Of a DNA stretch of 27,681 bases, positions 3,622 through 27,031 are shown one piece after another. Source of the DNA: a virus. The stretch covers positions 1 through 27,681 of the IMG/VR virus record IMGVR_UViG_3300030101_002511; one strand, given 5' to 3'. The stretch's first letter is position 1, and every line of letters starts with the position of its first letter. Made by a program: the position numbers and the translations under genes. Under the pieces are notes generated by a model. That model worked only from the letters and a program-made list of their open reading frames with translations, was not told the DNA's origin and made no database searches.

Positions 3622-3704
3622 TGCCTTATCATTATGGAAACAAGAAAAAGAAAAAAGCTAAAAAGAAAATTAAAAGCAAAAAAATGGGCAAAAAGAGAAA
3701 GTAA
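3621..3704 (+). CDS. Lys-rich mini-protein (27 aa)
   Basis: This 27-codon frame starts MPYHYGNKKKKK and consists of 14 Lys and 1 Arg. It overlaps its upstream neighbour as TAATG and is followed by TAATTG leading into the next gene. Tiny poly-Lys proteins beginning MPYHYG occur in other phages next to packaging genes, which supports it as real. The charge suggests DNA or RNA contact or condensation; function is unknown. Confidence 0.5.
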   Translation: MPYHYGNKKKKKAKKKIKSKKMGKKRK

Positions 3705-3869
3705 TTGTTTGAGAAATGTCCATTAAAGCAATTCAAAATGTGTGGTTTCGCTGGATACGATAAGGATCAAGTCCTAAGATGTGGAATAGCAACACCGTTA
3801 AACAAAGTTATACAATTAACTAAATGCCCCCTTTATGAAAAACGCAAATCTAAATATCGTAGATTATAA
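3705..3869 (+). CDS. Cys-rich small phage protein (54 aa)
   Basis: A TTG-initiated frame encodes MFEKCPLKQFKMCG, then YDKDQVLRCG, then LNKVIQLTKCPLYEK. The four cysteines (C5, C13, C26, C41) are spaced as in a recurrent small phage family with the pattern C-P-x-C ... Q-x-x-x-C-G ... L-x-x-C-P, likely binding zinc. It directly follows the Lys-rich gene and overlaps the start of the ParB-like gene by 35 bp. Function unknown. Confidence 0.55.
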   Translation: MFEKCPLKQFKMCGFAGYDKDQVLRCGIATPLNKVIQLTKCPLYEKRKSKYRRL

Positions 3870-4395: not shown

Positions 4396-5066
4396 AACTT
4401 TATAGAGCTACACCGAAGGCAGTAAAATATTCATGTCTTAACTATCATTATTCAAAAAAAACACCTGCAAATAATGGATTACCTTTTGCAGTTTTTAATA
4501 AAAAAAATAAATTTTGTGGATGTATAATTTACAGCTATGGTGCAAATCCTAGAATTGCAAGACCTTATAAATTAATGCAAGGGCAAGTAATTGAATTAGC
4601 AAGAATGGCATTAAATGGAAAGCAAGAATCAACCTCAAAAGCTTTGTCTTTAAGTTTAAAATTATTAAAGAAAAAAGCACCTTTAGTTAAATTAGTTGTA
4701 AGCTATGCCGATAAAGGTCAAAAGCATTTAGGGACAATATATCAAGCAACTAACTGGGTATATGAAAATCAAAGTGAAAGCTCTACAACAGAATATTTTA
4801 TAAGAAATAAATGGATGCATTCAAGATCAGCAAATCAAATAATTAGAAATTATAATTTAGATAGATCAAAAATAAAAAAAAGAAAAGCATCGGGTAAGAT
4901 AAAATATTTATATCCATTAGACAAAAATACAAGAAAAAATATTTCAAAACTTTCAAAACCTTATTTGAAAGACATAAGCGATTCTAGTGTAAGTGGAAGC
5001 ACATTATCTTTCCAAGATAAAAGTGGAGGTTCGATTCCTACCGAATCGCTCAAAAATTATGGATAA
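4392..5066 (+). CDS. mom: Mom-like DNA adenine modification protein
   Basis: The protein resembles phage Mu Mom, a GNAT-fold enzyme that turns adenine into an N6-carbamoylmethyl derivative and blocks many restriction enzymes. Seen here are an N-terminal HYSKKTP...GLPFAVF block, GCIIYSYGANP, VIELARMAL, the signature SYADKGQKHLGTIYQATNW (residues 104-122) and a basic C-terminus KYLYPLDKNTRKN. The conserved N-terminus extends about 60 codons upstream of the first ATG (4575) with no ATG, GTG or TTG available. The only plausible start is ATA at 4392, with AGG at 4383-4385 as ribosome binding site, or a frameshift. Residues 196-224 are translated from a tRNA gene and probably are not part of the original protein. 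Confidence 0.8.
   Translation: MKLYRATPKAVKYSCLNYHYSKKTPANNGLPFAVFNKKNKFCGCIIYSYGANPRIARPYKLMQGQVIELARMALNGKQESTSKALSLSLKLLKKKAPLVKLVVSYADKGQKHLGTIYQATNWVYENQSESSTTEYFIRNKWMHSRSANQIIRNYNLDRSKIKKRKASGKIKYLYPLDKNTRKNISKLSKPYLKDISDSSVSGSTLSFQDKSGGSIPTESLKNYG
4978..5050 (+). tRNA. tRNA-Gly (anticodon UCC), with one bulged base in the T stem
   Basis: All arms can be folded. Acceptor GCGATTC (4978-4984) pairs with GAATCGC (5043-5049). The D arm GTGT/GCAC has loop AAGTGGAA with A14, G18, G19 and A21. Anticodon stem TTATC/GATAA is perfect, with loop TTTCCAA and anticodon TCC at 5011-5013. The T loop is TTCGATT. T stem GGAGG (5025-5029) pairs with CCTACC only if A5040 is bulged; without it the stem is perfect. 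G1-C72, C2-G71, G3-C70, C35, C36 and U73 agree with known tRNA-Gly identity elements. CCA is not encoded. It lies inside the end of the mom frame and 8 bp before terS. Confidence 0.8.
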
Positions 5067-9718: not shown

Positions 9719-10585
9719 ATGGCTGAAGTTACAACGACCACAAGTGCCGTTTTTCTGCCAGAAGTCTGGCAAGAGGCCATCTTAGATTATGCTGAGAGGC
9801 AATTCAGATTAAGAAATCAAGTTACTGAAGTTTCAGATGTTGGCTCTGGAGATGTTCTACATATTCCAAGAGTAACTGAAGAAACTGCTGCAACTTTAAG
9901 TTCTGGATCTGCTGTTTCTTTTGGTGCAAATACAGATGGCGAAATACAACTATCAATGGACAAGCATATTGTTGAAGGAAAAAGAATCGGTGATCTCGTA
10001 AGGGTTCAAAGTTCTTACGATCTTTTCAATCTATACTCAAGATCTATGGGTTATGCCGTAGCGAAAAAGATTGAATCAGAGATTGCAACATTAATGCAAA
10101 CAGCATCTGGTAATGACGTTAGTCTTTCAACTGACAACACTTTCACAACTGCATTAGTCAGAAGTGGATTGCAGAAGTTGCTTGATCTAAATGTTGACTA
10201 CACAATGGGAGATACTTTCTTCTATACTTCTCCAGCTGGATTCATGAGCTTGGCATCATTAGGCGAATTTTCTGATTATGAAAAGCGTGGGCCAGAAGCT
10301 GGTGGCGAAGGGCCAAATATTACTGGGATGATTAAAAAAATATATGGCATGGAAGTATATGCATCTACCGATTGGGACGATGACGGTGGAAGTGGAGATG
10401 AGACTGCAACAATCTTCACAAGGGATTCAATTCTTTATGCAGAGCAGTTCCCATTAAGAGTGCAGCAAAGTTACAACCTTGAATATTTAGCTACTGAGTT
10501 GGTTGTTGATCAACTCGTTGGAGTTGCTTTACATCAAGCAGCAAACGCAGCTGATTGTCAAATTGTAAACTTTAACAATCCGTAA
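9719..10585 (+). CDS. Major capsid protein (HK97 fold expected)
   Basis: The 288-residue protein follows the scaffold gene at 10 bp and is closed by a strong terminator, the usual arrangement for the coat gene. It starts TTTTSAVFLPEVWQEAILDYAERQF, has the E-loop-like VTEVSDVGSGDVLHIPRVTEE, a helical spine (YSRSMGYAVAKKIESEIATLMQ) and a C-terminal beta region ending LVVDQLVGVALHQA. The pattern matches HK97-fold coats of marine siphoviruses, close in size to the minimal fold. The N-terminus shows no removable delta domain. Confidence 0.85.
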   Translation: MAEVTTTTSAVFLPEVWQEAILDYAERQFRLRNQVTEVSDVGSGDVLHIPRVTEETAATLSSGSAVSFGANTDGEIQLSMDKHIVEGKRIGDLVRVQSSYDLFNLYSRSMGYAVAKKIESEIATLMQTASGNDVSLSTDNTFTTALVRSGLQKLLDLNVDYTMGDTFFYTSPAGFMSLASLGEFSDYEKRGPEAGGEGPNITGMIKKIYGMEVYASTDWDDDGGSGDETATIFTRDSILYAEQFPLRVQQSYNLEYLATELVVDQLVGVALHQAANAADCQIVNFNNP

Positions 10586-10598
10586 AGATGAGTAATGT

Positions 10599-10625
10599 GG
10601 GGGGCCGCTTTATGGCCCCCCTTTT
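10599..10625 (+). terminator. Strong intrinsic terminator after the capsid gene
   Basis: GGGGGGCC (10599-10606) pairs with GGCCCCCC (10614-10621) around a 7-nt loop and is followed by TTTT. It is the most stable hairpin I see in the genome and lies between the capsid and fibre genes. It would let capsid be made in excess over downstream products. No clear promoter follows it, so partial readthrough must supply the fibre gene. Confidence 0.9.
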
Positions 10626-10640: not shown

Positions 10641-13600
10641 ATGGCAACAGATTTAACAAACGTAGCAGTATCAACTGGATATACGCAATTATTACACATT
10701 GATGGGGGAGTTGGAGGATCGGTTAACAGAGTATATGATGGAGATGGCTCTGGAACACCATTAGAAATTTCATCAACAACGGTTCAGATCAAAGATGGGA
10801 GTTTTGATTTTGATGTTGCCTCGCATGATGGTACAAATGGATTAAAACTTGGAGGAACATTAGTAACTGCAACGGCAGCAGAAATTAATTATTTAGATAT
10901 TTCGAGCATCGGTAGTGCCGAAGCCTCAAAGGCGTTGGTGCTTGACGGCAGCAAAGATATAAGTGGAATCAGAAACCTAACAGCAACTGGCCAAATAAGT
11001 GCAGCTGATTTTGTAACTACTGGAAACACAACCATAGGAAATGCAGCAGCAGATACAGTTGCTTTTAATGCAACCATTACAACAGATTTAATTTTTGAAG
11101 GCTCATCTGCTGATGATAATGAGCTTACATTAACTCCAGGAAATCCAGGATCAGATATAACAATCACATTACCAGGAGCAACAACCACTTTAATCGGAAC
11201 AAATACATCCGACACAATAACAAATAAATCCATAGATGCCGATAATAATACTTTGTCAAACATTGAAGTAGATAACTTAAAAAGTGGAGTTCTTGATACC
11301 GATATAAGCTCTGTAAGTGGATCTGATGATACTTTGGCAAGTGCAAAAGCAATCAAAACTTATATCGATGCACAAGTTACGGCCCAGGATTTAGATGCAA
11401 CAACAGATTCTGGAACTATTGCGATTGATTTAGATTCTGAAACTTTAACTATTGCTGGAGGGGAGGGAATAGATACAAGTGCAACCTCCAACACAATAAC
11501 AATCGCTGGAGAGGATGCATCAACTTCAAACAAAGGAGTTGCATCATTTAGCTCAGATAATTTTGATGTTTCTTCTGGGGTTGTAACTATTAAAAACGAT
11601 GGTGTAATCCTTGCAACTGAAACAACTGGAGATTATGTCAATTCTATAACTGGAGGAACTGGAATTGATTCAACTGGTGCAACATCTGGAGAAAATATAT
11701 CACATACTTTATCATTAGATTTAAATGAATTGCCAACAGAAACAACCATCGCTGATACTGATTTTATCGCAATGGTTGATGCAACAGATTCTGGATCTGC
11801 AAAAATTACTTTTGAAGATTTAGAGGATGCAGTTTTCTCATCTATTTCTGGAGATATTGCAATTACTGAGGCTGGAGTTGCTACGATCCAAGCCAACAGC
11901 GTTGCCCTCGCAACTGATACAACTGGGGATTTTGTTAATTCAATAACAGCTGGAACTGGTTTAACATCAACAGGGGCCACGAGTGGGGAAAATATTTCTC
12001 ATTCGTTGAGCGTTGATGCAAGTCAAACTCAAATAACTTCGGTTGGAACCTTGAACGCTGGTGCAATCAGTTCTGGGTTTGGTGCAATAGATATAGGATC
12101 CAGTAATTTTACAACAACTGGCACGATTGATATTTCTGGGGGAACATTAACCCTGGCCGATAATCAAATCTCTGGAGATAAAGTAGAGGGAGGAACAATC
12201 AATGCGATTACAATATCAACCCTCACAACAGCAGCAATAAACGCATCAACTGATTTAGATATTGGCTCACATGGATTCAGAGCATCAACCTTAACTGCTG
12301 ATTCTCAAACTGCTGGAAGAGTTGCTATATATGGAACCAACGGTTTATTAAGTGAAGATTCCGATTTAACTTTTTCTGGATCAACCCTATCAGTTACAGA
12401 TTTGGCCGTATCTGGTACATTGACAACAACTGGCAGCGTTCAAGAAGTATCAACGACCAACTTAAATGTTCAAGATCCATTAATTTTATTGAACAAATAT
12501 GATTCACAACCTACCAACAATCTTTTTGATGCTGGTTTTATAATCAAAAGAGGCTCTGGAGATTCTGGACCAGCTAATGTTGGTTTTATATTTGATGAAT
12601 CAGCTGATCAGTTTGCTTTGATAGATACTACAGAGGATGGAACAACGGCTGGAAATGTTTCTATAACTGATTATGAAAATCTAAGAATTGGAGCGTTAAC
12701 TGCTGATGATGCCAGTACATTTACCAGCACAATATCAGCTGCAACTGGATCAACAATTGGAAACCTCACTTTGGCAAACGGTTCAATTACTGACTCAAGT
12801 GGATCTATTTCATTTGGTAATGAAAACCTCTCAACTTCTGGAACCTTATCTGCTGGTGCTATAACTGGAACCAGTTTCATTATTGGCAGTGCTGATATAA
12901 ATGAAACAGAGCTTGAGATAATAGATGGTGGAACAATAACAACAGCTGAATTAAATATCCTGGATGGAGATACTTCTGCAACATCAACAACAGTTGCTGA
13001 TGCGGACCGAGTTGTTATGAATGACAGTGGAACAATGGTCCAGGTGGCCGTTACAGATTTGGCAGCATATTTTGATGACGAAATAACAGCCATGCCAAAC
13101 TTGACATCTGTTGGAACCTTAACAGCATTGCAAGTTGATAACATCAATATAAATGGCAATACAATAATTTCATCTGATACTAATGGCGACATAAATCTAA
13201 CACCAAATGGATCTGGCAATGTCGTTATAAGCTCAGTAGACATCAATGGAGGAGCGATAGATGCAACCAACATAACAGTTGGCTCTGGTAAAACATTGGA
13301 TGTATCTGGTGGAACTCTAACACTTGCAAATGACCAAATATCTGGAAACGCAATCAATGGTGGTACAATAGGCTCAACAACAATTAGTGCGTTGGCTGGT
13401 GCATTGAGTATGGGTGGTAATAATATTACAGCAGTTGGCTCAGTAGCATTAGATAGCATAGAATCTGCATCTACTGGCAATGGTTTTGACCTTACTTTAT
13501 TAAATAATAAAGCAGATGCTTTAGAAATAAAAGAAGGCTCAAATGCCTACATGACTTTTATAACTACAACTGGTTCTGAAGAAATACAGATTGATAAAGC

Positions 13601-24805: not shown

Positions 24806-25201
24806 ATGGCAATAAGTACAGCAGCATTTGATGATGGCGATAATGGGGCCTCAAAAATCACATTCACACCATCCAGAAACCCTAATATTGGCGTTGAATA
24901 TGGTTCAAATTATCAAGGTGTTTTAAAAAATCAAGCTATTGGAGGAGAATGTTACACAATTGAAAGATTTGGTAAAAGGCGTACTTTTACAATGACTTAT
25001 TCTTTTTTAACAAGTGCAGATCAAGCAAAACTCCAGGCCCTTATTGATTATGCAGATGGCAGGAAGAATTTTTTCTTTTTTAGCGAGGATAACTTCTCAA
25101 CTACTGGAATAAAAGTCAGATTTGACCAAGATTCATTTGCTTTTCAAGAAGTAGCAAATGGGGCCACAAGCATAACTTTTTCAATAATAGAACAACTTTA
25201 A
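24806..25201 (+). CDS. Small tail-tip protein
   Basis: This 131-residue protein carries the segment FTMTYSFLTSADQAKLQALIDYADGRKNFFFF, then FSTTGIKVRFDQDSFAF and GATSITFSIIEQL. The pattern of a 'DQAKLQALIDYADGRKN' helix followed by strands is one I associate with minor tail proteins of the distal tail type. An AAGGAG ribosome binding site precedes the ATG. It is the last gene before a terminator and therefore the last gene of the structural operon. Confidence 0.6.
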   Translation: MAISTAAFDDGDNGASKITFTPSRNPNIGVEYGSNYQGVLKNQAIGGECYTIERFGKRRTFTMTYSFLTSADQAKLQALIDYADGRKNFFFFSEDNFSTTGIKVRFDQDSFAFQEVANGATSITFSIIEQL

Positions 25202-25218
25202 TTTCACTCCTCCTCCTG

Positions 25219-25255
25219 GCCCTCAGAGATAATATCAAAGAGGGCAATCTTTTTT
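25219..25255 (+). terminator. Intrinsic terminator at the end of the structural operon
   Basis: GCCCTC (25219-25224) pairs with GAGGGC (25240-25245) and is followed by AATC and six T (25250-25255). The loop is 15 nt. It lies 18 bp after the stop of the last tail gene and just before a new promoter, which marks an operon boundary. Confidence 0.75.
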
Positions 25256-25260
25256 CTTTG

Positions 25261-25290
25261 TTATTAGTTTTTTTCATATTAAATTATACT
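25261..25290 (+). promoter_or_regulatory. Promoter candidate for the early accessory genes
   Basis: TATACT (25285-25290), close to the sigma70 consensus, lies 18 bp downstream of TTATTA (25261-25266), immediately after the structural-operon terminator. Transcription would start near 25297 and use the AAAGGAG site for the ATG at 25327. The -35 box is weak, so an activator may be needed. Confidence 0.45.
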
Positions 25291-25326
25291 ATGACGATTA
25301 ACAAAAAAACAAAGGAGAACCCTAAA

Positions 25327-25623
25327 ATGAATAAAGACAAACATAAGTTAGAATATAATGGCTGGACTAATTGGGTTACATGGAATTTTAAGCTTTGGAT
25401 TGATAATGATGAAAAATTACATAAGTTTGTATATTCTAATCTAATAGACTATGAAACACCTAAATATAAAAAAATGTTTTTACAAAAAGTTGGAATAACT
25501 TGTGCTGGTACTGAATTAATGTCTGATCTTACGAAATCAGATTTGACTTTTATTAATTATGAAGAATTAATTAATGAAATAGAAGAAGATATTAAAGAAT
25601 TAAGGCTTGAGCTTAACAATTGA
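25327..25623 (+). CDS. Small phage protein with GWTNWVTWN motif
   Basis: I start at ATG 25327 because of the AAAGGAG 10 bp upstream; an in-frame ATG at 25291 lies within the promoter. The 98-residue protein begins EYNGWTNWVTWNFKLWIDNDE, a pattern shared with a family of small proteins in phages and bacteria (DUF7249-like, 'GW.NYETW...LW..N'). The rest is acidic and helical. Function unknown; it is the first gene of a new operon. Confidence 0.65.
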   Translation: MNKDKHKLEYNGWTNWVTWNFKLWIDNDEKLHKFVYSNLIDYETPKYKKMFLQKVGITCAGTELMSDLTKSDLTFINYEELINEIEEDIKELRLELNN

Positions 25624-25723
25624 TTAAAATCGAAGTGATTATTGATTTTTTGAATATACATTGCATTAATTTCACAATTAATAATAACTGCTTGGGCCTT
25701 AAAACATTAAAGAGGAGAGTAAA

Positions 25724-25921
25724 ATGAATCCATATATATTTTGGCTAATCGTTGCCGTTTTGGTGGCTTTTTTTCAAATGTTTAATAAATTAGTTCAATA
25801 TAGAACATCTGCTAAGTTCTGGAAAAATACAGCATTCCAGGCAACGGAGAGATATAATCAAATGCTTGTAAAACAATCGATGAAACAAGCATTGAGCAAA
25901 TTAGATAAGATAAAAGCATGA
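25724..25921 (+). CDS. Small membrane protein (65 aa)
   Basis: An AGGAGAG ribosome binding site leads to a protein with an N-terminal membrane segment (IFWLIVAVLVAFFQMF, residues 4-19) and then a basic helix (FWKNTAFQATERYNQMLVKQSMKQALSKLDKIK). It is separated from the previous gene by 100 bp that contain an AT-rich dyad (ATTAAT at 25665-25670 and 25677-25682). It could be an early membrane protein such as a superinfection factor; no family recognised. Confidence 0.5.
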   Translation: MNPYIFWLIVAVLVAFFQMFNKLVQYRTSAKFWKNTAFQATERYNQMLVKQSMKQALSKLDKIKA

Positions 25922-25945
25922 ATATTAGAGCGTTCATGCTTTTGA

Positions 25946-26032
25946 ATGGTGGGGGGCGAGGGCGTATCACTCTCTCCGATATGTCCTTTCCTTTGTTGTT
26001 AATCGTCAATTTTCAACCCCCACCATATTTTT
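25946..26032 (+). ncRNA. Candidate structured RNA with a nested hairpin
   Basis: ATGGTGGGGG (25946-25955) pairs perfectly with CCCCCACCAT (26017-26026) and is followed by ATTTTT. Within the 61-nt interior, GGCGTATC (25961-25968) pairs with GATATGTC C-side bases 25978-25985 through eight pairs including two G-U, leaving the loop ACTCTCTCC. The region has no convincing + strand gene. It ends right before the AGGAG of the gene at 26044, so it could be a small RNA with its own terminator or a 5' leader/attenuator. Confidence 0.5.
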
Positions 26033-26043
26033 AGGAGTGACAA

Positions 26044-26247
26044 ATGAAACATAGAATTTTTTATTTTGACAAATCTGGAGAAAAGACCATCGCAATAATT
26101 ACTCATAAAAAAGAAATAAAAAACAAGCAGAGTCAGTTTATAAAGATCATGAAAGTGCTCGAGAGGGATGGATGGACTTCAACAGAAATAAAACAGAAAA
26201 TAGATCCACCTAAAGTATTTCACCCACAAACTGGAGAGGAGATCTGA
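26044..26247 (+). CDS. Small hypothetical protein (67 aa)
   Basis: AGGAG at 26033-26037 precedes the ATG. The protein has a short strand start (HRIFYFDKSGEKTIAIITHKK), a basic helix and a terminal PPKVFHPQTGEEI. Its stop overlaps the next start (TGATG). No motif recognised. Its ribosome binding site lies 7 bp from the structured segment, so its translation may depend on that fold. Confidence 0.55.
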   Translation: MKHRIFYFDKSGEKTIAIITHKKEIKNKQSQFIKIMKVLERDGWTSTEIKQKIDPPKVFHPQTGEEI

Positions 26248-26480
26248 TGTCAGATTTAAGATGGGGTTCGAGTCATTATAGAGTTACCATATTAATAGGG
26301 GATGGCATGACAAATATTGAATCCAGAAGTTTTGTTGATCTAATAACAAAATTATTAAAAATTTTTAAAAAATATGAGGATGCATATATAGTTGATGCAA
26401 CTGCTTTTTTTGAAAAAGAATCTTATAACATAAAACAAAAGGTAATTCAAACATTAAATGAGAGGAGAGATGATGATTGA
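26247..26480 (+). CDS. Small hypothetical protein (77 aa)
   Basis: The ATG overlaps the previous stop. The protein combines strands (SHYRVTILIGDGMTNIES) with an amphipathic helix (FVDLITKLLKIFKKYED) and a charged C-terminus (RRDDD). No family recognised. Coupled starts and stops support it as a real member of this early operon. Confidence 0.5.
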   Translation: MSDLRWGSSHYRVTILIGDGMTNIESRSFVDLITKLLKIFKKYEDAYIVDATAFFEKESYNIKQKVIQTLNERRDDD

Positions 26481-26874
26481 TAATAAGTTTCTTGCTGAGA
26501 AATACGGTCTGGAAAAATCACATTTTTGGAAACATAAACAATCTGGCAAATGGATTGTTTCCCACGTAGCTGTTATGATCATTGCAGATTACGAGGGAAT
26601 TGAGTTTAGCAAACCAGAATATATAGAAAAAGAGATGGGTTCGGTTGTTCTTTTAGGATCTGGAGAGTTAATTTTAGAAAATGGTAATAAAAAAGTAAAA
26701 TGGACTCATGGCGAGGCAAACTTAAAAAATTGTCATGTGCCTTATCCATACGCAATGGCTGAAAAAAGGTTAAAAGATAGGCTAACTTTAATGCTTATAT
26801 CAGCTTATGGGGATGTTTATTCTGAGATTGAGGCAGATGAGTTTGCAGCACAACAAAAAATTCATGATGAATGA
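26473..26874 (+). CDS. Conserved phage protein with YPYAMAEKRLKDR motif
   Basis: I choose ATG 26473 (MIDNKFLAEKYGL) because GAGGAGA sits five bases upstream; ATG at 26458 and 26470 are also in frame. The 133-residue protein has EKSHFWKHKQSGKWIVSHVAV at the N-terminus, a beta core, and GEANLKNCHVPYPYAMAEKRLKDRLTLML, then VYSEIEADEF at the C-terminus. The last block recurs in phage proteins encoded near recombination and single-strand annealing genes. A recombination or DNA-annealing role is possible but not shown. Confidence 0.5.
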   Translation: MIDNKFLAEKYGLEKSHFWKHKQSGKWIVSHVAVMIIADYEGIEFSKPEYIEKEMGSVVLLGSGELILENGNKKVKWTHGEANLKNCHVPYPYAMAEKRLKDRLTLMLISAYGDVYSEIEADEFAAQQKIHDE

Positions 26875-27031
26875 TCAGCCAGATAGGATCGAAGTTGGCT
26901 CCGAAACTGGGATTGAGCAAGATTTGCCATTTGATAACAATATAAAAAGTGAATTTGATTGGTTGGCGTCAATTAAAAGAACTTTTAAAAACATTGTGGA
27001 TATTGTAAAGATATTAACAAAATGGCGATAA
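26867..27031 (+). CDS. Small hypothetical protein (54 aa)
   Basis: ATGAATGA at 26867 couples this frame to the previous stop (an ATG three bases earlier is also in frame). It has an acidic first half (IEVGSETGIEQDLPFDNN) and a basic, amphipathic second half (WLASIKRTFKNIVDIVKILTKWR). It overlaps the nuclease gene by 10 bp. No family recognised; the basic helix might contact DNA or a partner protein. Confidence 0.5.
   Translation: MNDQPDRIEVGSETGIEQDLPFDNNIKSEFDWLASIKRTFKNIVDIVKILTKWR

Follow-up and report, generated by a model that had tools for sequence, protein, structure and literature searches.

The non-coding segment at positions 25946–26032 of this viral DNA folds into nested hairpins and directly precedes the ribosome-binding site of the next gene, which raises the question of whether it encodes a regulatory RNA and, if so, on which gene that RNA would act. 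A preliminary description had proposed a small RNA that blocks early gene translation, a switch in the leader of the gene at 26044, or a terminator with an unusually large loop. Computational analysis showed a stable fold, covariation of its stems in relatives, complementarity of one strand to an upstream leader and joint change of the two sites in three contigs. The segment probably encodes an antisense RNA that lies in the 3' part of a phage operon and represses translation at the 5' end of the same operon.

Gene neighbourhood and fold of the element

The window, i.e. the whole stretch of DNA that was analysed, is a virus record of 27,681 bases. It contains a terminase-like gene, the product of which had its best identity (39%) to Vibrio and Stenotrophomonas phages. 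No cultured relatives were detected by DNA comparison of window bases 1–25000, none were found for the tail protein, and the bacterial genome collection did not contain a relative of this tail protein. A tRNA-Gly (anticodon tcc) is located at 4978–5051 on the plus strand, overlapping the ends of listed open reading frames. A strong terminator-like hairpin, GGGGGGCCGC-TTTAT-GGCCCCCC followed by a T run, is located at 10599–10621 on the plus strand, between an open reading frame ending at 10585 and a 1500-aa open reading frame at 10641.

The order of features around the element is the gene at 24806–25201, a terminator-like hairpin, a leader, the 25327 gene, the 25724 gene, the element and a number of small genes. 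The individual features are as follows.

24806–25201: tail gene upstream of the leader
25219–25255, plus strand: terminator-like hairpin and T run between the tail gene and the leader, read by eye
25291–25326, plus strand: leader of the first block gene, the presumed target, based on complementarity and duplex energy
25327–25623, plus strand: first block gene, 98 aa, DUF7249
25724–25921, plus strand: small gene upstream of the element, 65 aa, with an N-terminus judged hydrophobic by eye
25911–25944, plus strand: separate hairpin of 13 bp that spans the stop codon of the 25724 gene
25946–26032, plus strand: structured RNA element with outer stem, inner hairpin, open strand and T run, based on fold and homologues
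25946–25955, plus strand: 5' strand of the outer stem, ATGGTGGGGG, based on fold and on covariation in relatives
25958–25988, plus strand: inner hairpin of 11 bp with G.U pairs (25958–25968 with 25978–25988), based on fold
25969–25977, plus strand: loop of the inner hairpin, ACTCTCTCC
25987–26008, plus strand: antisense strand, the presumed seed (wider match 25984–26008), based on complementarity and duplex energy
26017–26026, plus strand: 3' strand of the outer stem, CCCCCACCAT, based on fold and on covariation in relatives
26028–26032, plus strand: T run TTTTT after the outer stem

The RNA fold of 25946–26032 has an energy of -34.5 kcal/mol, compared with a mean of -18.65 (sd 2.98) for 200 dinucleotide shuffles, none of which was as low (z = -5.32), and the nested hairpin seen in the preliminary description is therefore real by this control. 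The fold of the minus strand is weaker (-26.2 versus -34.5 for the plus strand). The outer stem is a perfect 10-bp helix, as had been described, while the inner hairpin, previously given as 8 bp, extends to 11 bp when G.U pairs are counted. The GGAGAG motif was located before both the 25724 and the 26473 genes, and the five T at the end of the fold, with the AGGAG of the next gene directly after them, were also confirmed. Neither the element nor the hairpin at 25219–25255 appeared in the scan for terminator hairpins, in which the loop limit was 8.

Occurrence of the element and covariation of its stems in relatives

Relatives were gathered via the neighbouring proteins and a DNA pattern, and an element of the same shape was found at the equivalent position in 24 further contigs of uncultured phages from IMG/VR, some of them nearly identical, on the same strand as the neighbouring genes. 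All 21 loci returned by a profile of the upstream gene (25724), which was built from contigs already known to have the element, bear the element, preceded by homologues of this gene. A scan with the tail gene gave 28 loci, and most of the loci without a seen element stop no more than approximately 1 kb from the tail gene. The element is not universal, since contig L354, which has a close tail gene and continues for 6 kb beyond it, contained no element detectable by the covariance model. There was also no covariance-model match in the remote L355, which likewise continues for 6 kb beyond the tail gene, or in L002, which encodes a 30% relative of the 26044 protein. Weak covariance-model matches outside the known context were observed in L009 (3727–3800) and L010 (5648–5721), with E values of 0.006–0.007.

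The sequence of the element varies strongly among relatives. From the outer stem onward, the folds of 18 distinct elements follow the same plan, with one variation, in L311, where the open strand lies inside a hairpin loop. In subgroup A (seven members), standard pairs occupied 105 of 105 pair cells, and seven of the 15 pairs had changed on both sides, compared with two at most in controls with slid partners. The second subgroup (five members) had 97.8% of cells paired and two both-sided pairs, a number that one slid control also reached, and its covariation, taken alone, is weak. In the alignment of 15 sequences, which was fitted to the covariance model, 99.0% of 204 cells were paired and 13 of the 15 pairs were both-sided, versus no more than six in the slid versions. 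The stems are thus maintained by compensatory changes in relatives, and uncompensated stem-breaking changes, the kind of evidence that the preliminary description had named as refuting its proposal, were checked for in the alignments, and this check did not refute it. The G.U pairs in the stems correspond to A.C mismatches on the other strand, and the conserved molecule therefore appears to be the plus-strand RNA.

The copy in the window is an outlier of this family. It scored 11.6 bits in the covariance model (E 0.17 in a 1.2-kb search) and gave no covariance-model match in larger searches, and its membership in the family rests on position, shape and complementarity.

Predicted pairing partners of the open strand

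The preliminary description missed that 25984–26008, on the 3' side of the inner hairpin, is complementary at 22 of 25 positions (88%) to 25292–25316, a stretch that includes the Shine-Dalgarno sequence of the 25327 gene. The duplex between the window strand and this first leader had an energy of -27.5 kcal/mol, ranking first among 46 gene leaders (mean of the others, -12.7), and was not equalled by any of 300 leader shuffles or 300 strand shuffles. After subtraction of unfolding costs, -17.8 kcal/mol remained. The first leader is the only clear predicted target in the window.

The preliminary description had instead pointed to the inner loop, read as anti-Shine-Dalgarno-like. Compared with 46 genes, the loop CUCUCUCC of the window has its four highest-ranking matches in neighbouring genes (27377, 26473, 26247 and 25724), none of which is selected by the reversed loop. 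Seven relatives have a loop of this type. In five of them, its reversal picked the same top gene, and in a sixth, the same two top genes. The loop as a seed is suggestive in the window, but it was not separated from its reversed control in six of the seven relatives and was not adopted. The active part with the best support is not the pyrimidine loop but the strand that follows the inner hairpin on its 3' side (25987–26008). A translation-blocking small RNA was the best supported of the three options considered earlier, although with a different strand (25987–26008) and a different target (the 25327 leader) from those first proposed.

The fit between strand and leader was compared in 19 contigs; G004, in which the first leader is missing from the contig, was excluded. 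By duplex energy, the first leader ranked first in 10 of the 19 contigs and among the top four in all 19. With 300 shuffles each, none was as good for the leader in 16 contigs and for the strand in 15, and the 16 pairs examined retained -9.0 to -17.8 kcal/mol after unfolding costs. In subgroup A, G005 and G007, the equivalent strand reads UUUGUCCUCC and then (U)UAAUCAUC or similar, and ATGATGATTAAY-N-GGAGGACAAA in most cases precedes the ATG of the first block gene.

When strands and leaders were swapped between contigs, the window leader paired at -27.5 kcal/mol with its own strand and at -13.7 with the best of 18 foreign strands. The window strand binds the leaders of G007 (-27.4) and G005 (-27.1) almost as well as its own (-27.5), which makes the swap test one-sided for the window. 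In L340, both sites have changed, and the leader pairs at -28.0 with its own strand and at -21.9 with the best foreign strand. L311 has GGAGGTAAA before the first gene and TTTACCTCC in the strand; its duplex is weak, as 5 of 300 and 17 of 300 shuffles were as good, and on its leader two foreign strands slightly outperform its own.

Joint changes were tabulated by hand for 12 of the 19 contigs. In the leader-start block, 87 of 99 cells were paired, with both-sided changes at positions 4–7 (window and L340), and in the Shine-Dalgarno block, 105 of 110 cells were paired, and positions 6, 7 and 9 have changed on both sides (L311 and L340). Strand and leader have therefore changed together in three contigs, at four leader-start and three Shine-Dalgarno positions, these being counts of both-sided positions and not of independent events. 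Absent from the table are G006, G010, G012, L322, L335, L327 and L328, and two of these, if tabulated, would count against the leader-start block: G006, which has an altered leader start, and G010, in which the leader start is lost and a tRNA-like end is found in its place. The G011 type is without the leader start and has kept the Shine-Dalgarno match. Just before block genes, tRNA-like 3' ends were observed in G010 (L298) at approximately 2690–2838 and in G007 (L277) at approximately 3700–3760.

These comparisons also bear on the other two options of the preliminary description. A switch in the leader of the 26044 gene is the weaker reading, as relatives differ in the type of gene that follows the element and the strand changes jointly with the upstream leader. 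In L327, L328 and L329, the usual small genes between the element and the 26473-like gene are absent, and a 179-aa gene directly follows the element. The terminator may hold for some copies, and the GC-rich outer stem followed by TTTTT in the window has the expected form. As a general explanation, however, an intrinsic terminator with an enlarged loop and only incidental complementarity is very unlikely, since at least five T within approximately 2 bases of the outer stem were found in 5 of 18 elements (the window and four others; a sixth has TTTTT some bases further from the stem), and the match of the open strand to the leader far exceeds that of shuffled sequences.

A second potential partner of the strand is present in most relatives, in which a short leader-like sequence immediately precedes the outer stem and is predicted to pair with this strand, with energies of -14.2 to -22.5 kcal/mol in 15 relatives, so that the conserved function could be base-pairing internal to the RNA. 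This 5' element matches the changed strand in L311, L319 and L340, and several MFE folds favour its pairing, as would be expected of a self-contained RNA switch in which the strand pairs with its own 5' element, as a pseudoknot or an alternative hairpin, and controls the downstream gene or read-through, its likeness to the block leader arising because both are start sites. We regard such a switch as unlikely. The 5' element is absent in the window (-4.9 kcal/mol for the strand at this place versus -27.5 for the leader), the separate, plain 13-bp hairpin at 25911–25944 occupying this site. The strand also paired more strongly with the leader than with the 5' element in 15 of 16 contigs and equally in one; this comparison covered 16 of the 19 contigs, leaving out G010, G012 and L322, the elements of which resemble those counted. 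Furthermore, the 5'-element helix showed no both-sided change in subgroup A (0 of 10 pairs), and the Shine-Dalgarno sequences of the next genes in L311 and L340 match the GGAG/GGAGG core only. The leader is thus the better-supported partner of the strand. In the relatives, an AU-rich spacer, seen by eye and absent in the window, precedes the outer stem, and the 5' element may form a pseudoknot or may keep the strand locked until cleavage of the RNA within this spacer.

Extended Shine-Dalgarno sequences in the block

In many relatives, the strand also fits the extended Shine-Dalgarno sequence GGAGGACAAA of further block genes. Across the 19 contigs, 35 of 64 GGAGG sites between the leader and the element were extended to GGAGGACAAA, compared with 0 of 75 elsewhere (Fisher 1.5e-15, which is overstated because the contigs are related). 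The exact complement of the contig's own 9-mer was found at 26 of 64 block sites versus 3 of 73 outside. It was absent from the blocks of G011, L319, L322, L335, L327 and L328, because strand and ribosome-binding site differ in outer bases in these six contigs. All 26 matches to GGAGGACAAAN0-4ATG, in 13 records, were on the strand of the element, with none for the reversed control; the window and G004 had no match to this pattern.

Eleven leaders were examined for the reading frame of the ATG at their start. In ten of them, this ATG shares the frame of the first block gene, at distances of 36, 39 or 42 nt, and in the eleventh, that of G007, the frame ends at a stop overlapping the start codon. 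The in-frame leaders, including 25291–25326 of the window, are open, with peptides like MMINNNNVLKEDK, and might possibly encode a leader peptide or an N-terminal extension. No Shine-Dalgarno sequence was seen upstream of the leader-start ATG, and it is conceivable that this ATG is a translated, possibly leaderless start, which the RNA would also cover. Among nine leaders searched for promoter-like hexamers, only that of G005 stood out clearly (6 of 300 random windows were as good). An own promoter for the RNA was considered and rejected, as the hexamers before the element were near the AT-rich background in 16 of 16 cases.

Blocks that vary in gene content lie between the two complementary sites, an arrangement that could also be produced by a DNA inverted repeat serving as a recombination site at the borders of an exchangeable gene cassette. 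This explanation is extremely improbable, considering the unequal spacing of the sub-sites in the two arms, the additional copies of the ribosome-binding site within the block and the retention of G.U pairs on the plus strand.

Proposed mechanism and comparison with known regulators

According to the antisense reading, the segment would encode a structured RNA, approximately 85 nt long, within the 3' part of a short block of accessory genes of a tailed phage. The outer stem and the inner hairpin would keep the strand 25987–26008 open, and this strand would block ribosome entry by base-pairing with two sites in the leader of the first gene, namely the Shine-Dalgarno sequence and the leader start (ATGACGATTAAC in the window). 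In relatives with GGAGGACAAA before further block genes, the whole block would be turned down together. We infer that the 25946–26032 RNA would be made and stable, would repress by pairing and would act in trans. The one-sided swap test, L354 and the count of own 9-mers slightly lowered confidence in this reading. Alternatively, the 3' strand might fold back on the 5' leader within a single polycistronic mRNA and act in cis only; in 19 contigs, leader and element do share a strand, with 0.5 to 2.3 kb between them, but we consider such long-range pairing unlikely.

An Rfam cmscan (E<=1) of window positions 25000–27000 gave no match, and that of eight relatives gave two unrelated sub-threshold matches, neither of them to RF01695. 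No RNA of this layout was found in the literature, as covered by open-licence papers.

The c4 RNA is encoded upstream of an antirepressor gene. In phages P1 and P7, complementary stretches presented by its structure pair around the target ribosome-binding site and block translation (PMC12197685), and c4 RNA is also listed in PMC2864571. Like c4 (RF01695), the element would be a phage antisense RNA whose sequence complements the ribosome-binding region of a gene nearby. Unlike c4, it gave no match to the RF01695 covariance model, its position is downstream of the presumed target, and this target is not an antirepressor but a variable accessory block with a DUF7249 gene in first position. By Rfam model or gene order, the element is not a c4 RNA. 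T4 RegA is a translational repressor that acts at the start sites of several phage genes; it resembles the proposed RNA in that one phage regulator serves several start sites, and differs in being a protein.

With respect to position, the element, located at the 3' end of its presumed target block in 19 contigs, is similar to OppZ and CarZ of Vibrio cholerae, RNAs from operon 3' ends that pair with their own transcript and inhibit translation (PMC7398697). OppZ and CarZ are bacterial 3' UTR RNAs processed by RNase E, while the element is known from sequence, and no sequence relation to them is claimed. CisR, a 3' UTR RNA of bacteria, targets a phage mRNA (PMC13250501), and its direction of action is different from that proposed here.

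A more far-reaching and rather doubtful possibility is that the element represents a new phage RNA family, the regulon of which is defined by an extended Shine-Dalgarno code. Such an RNA would cover a possibly leaderless AUG together with the Shine-Dalgarno sequence of the same gene, would fit the sites of other block genes, and would mostly carry a 5' copy of its target as a lock to be cut or displaced.

Few structured regulatory RNAs of uncultured phages have a target supported by sequence, and in the present case both the RNA and its target are legible from the sequence, with their contact changed on both sides. If the antisense reading is true, a fast-changing block of accessory phage genes would be under RNA feedback, and an extended ribosome-binding site would mark the genes under this control.
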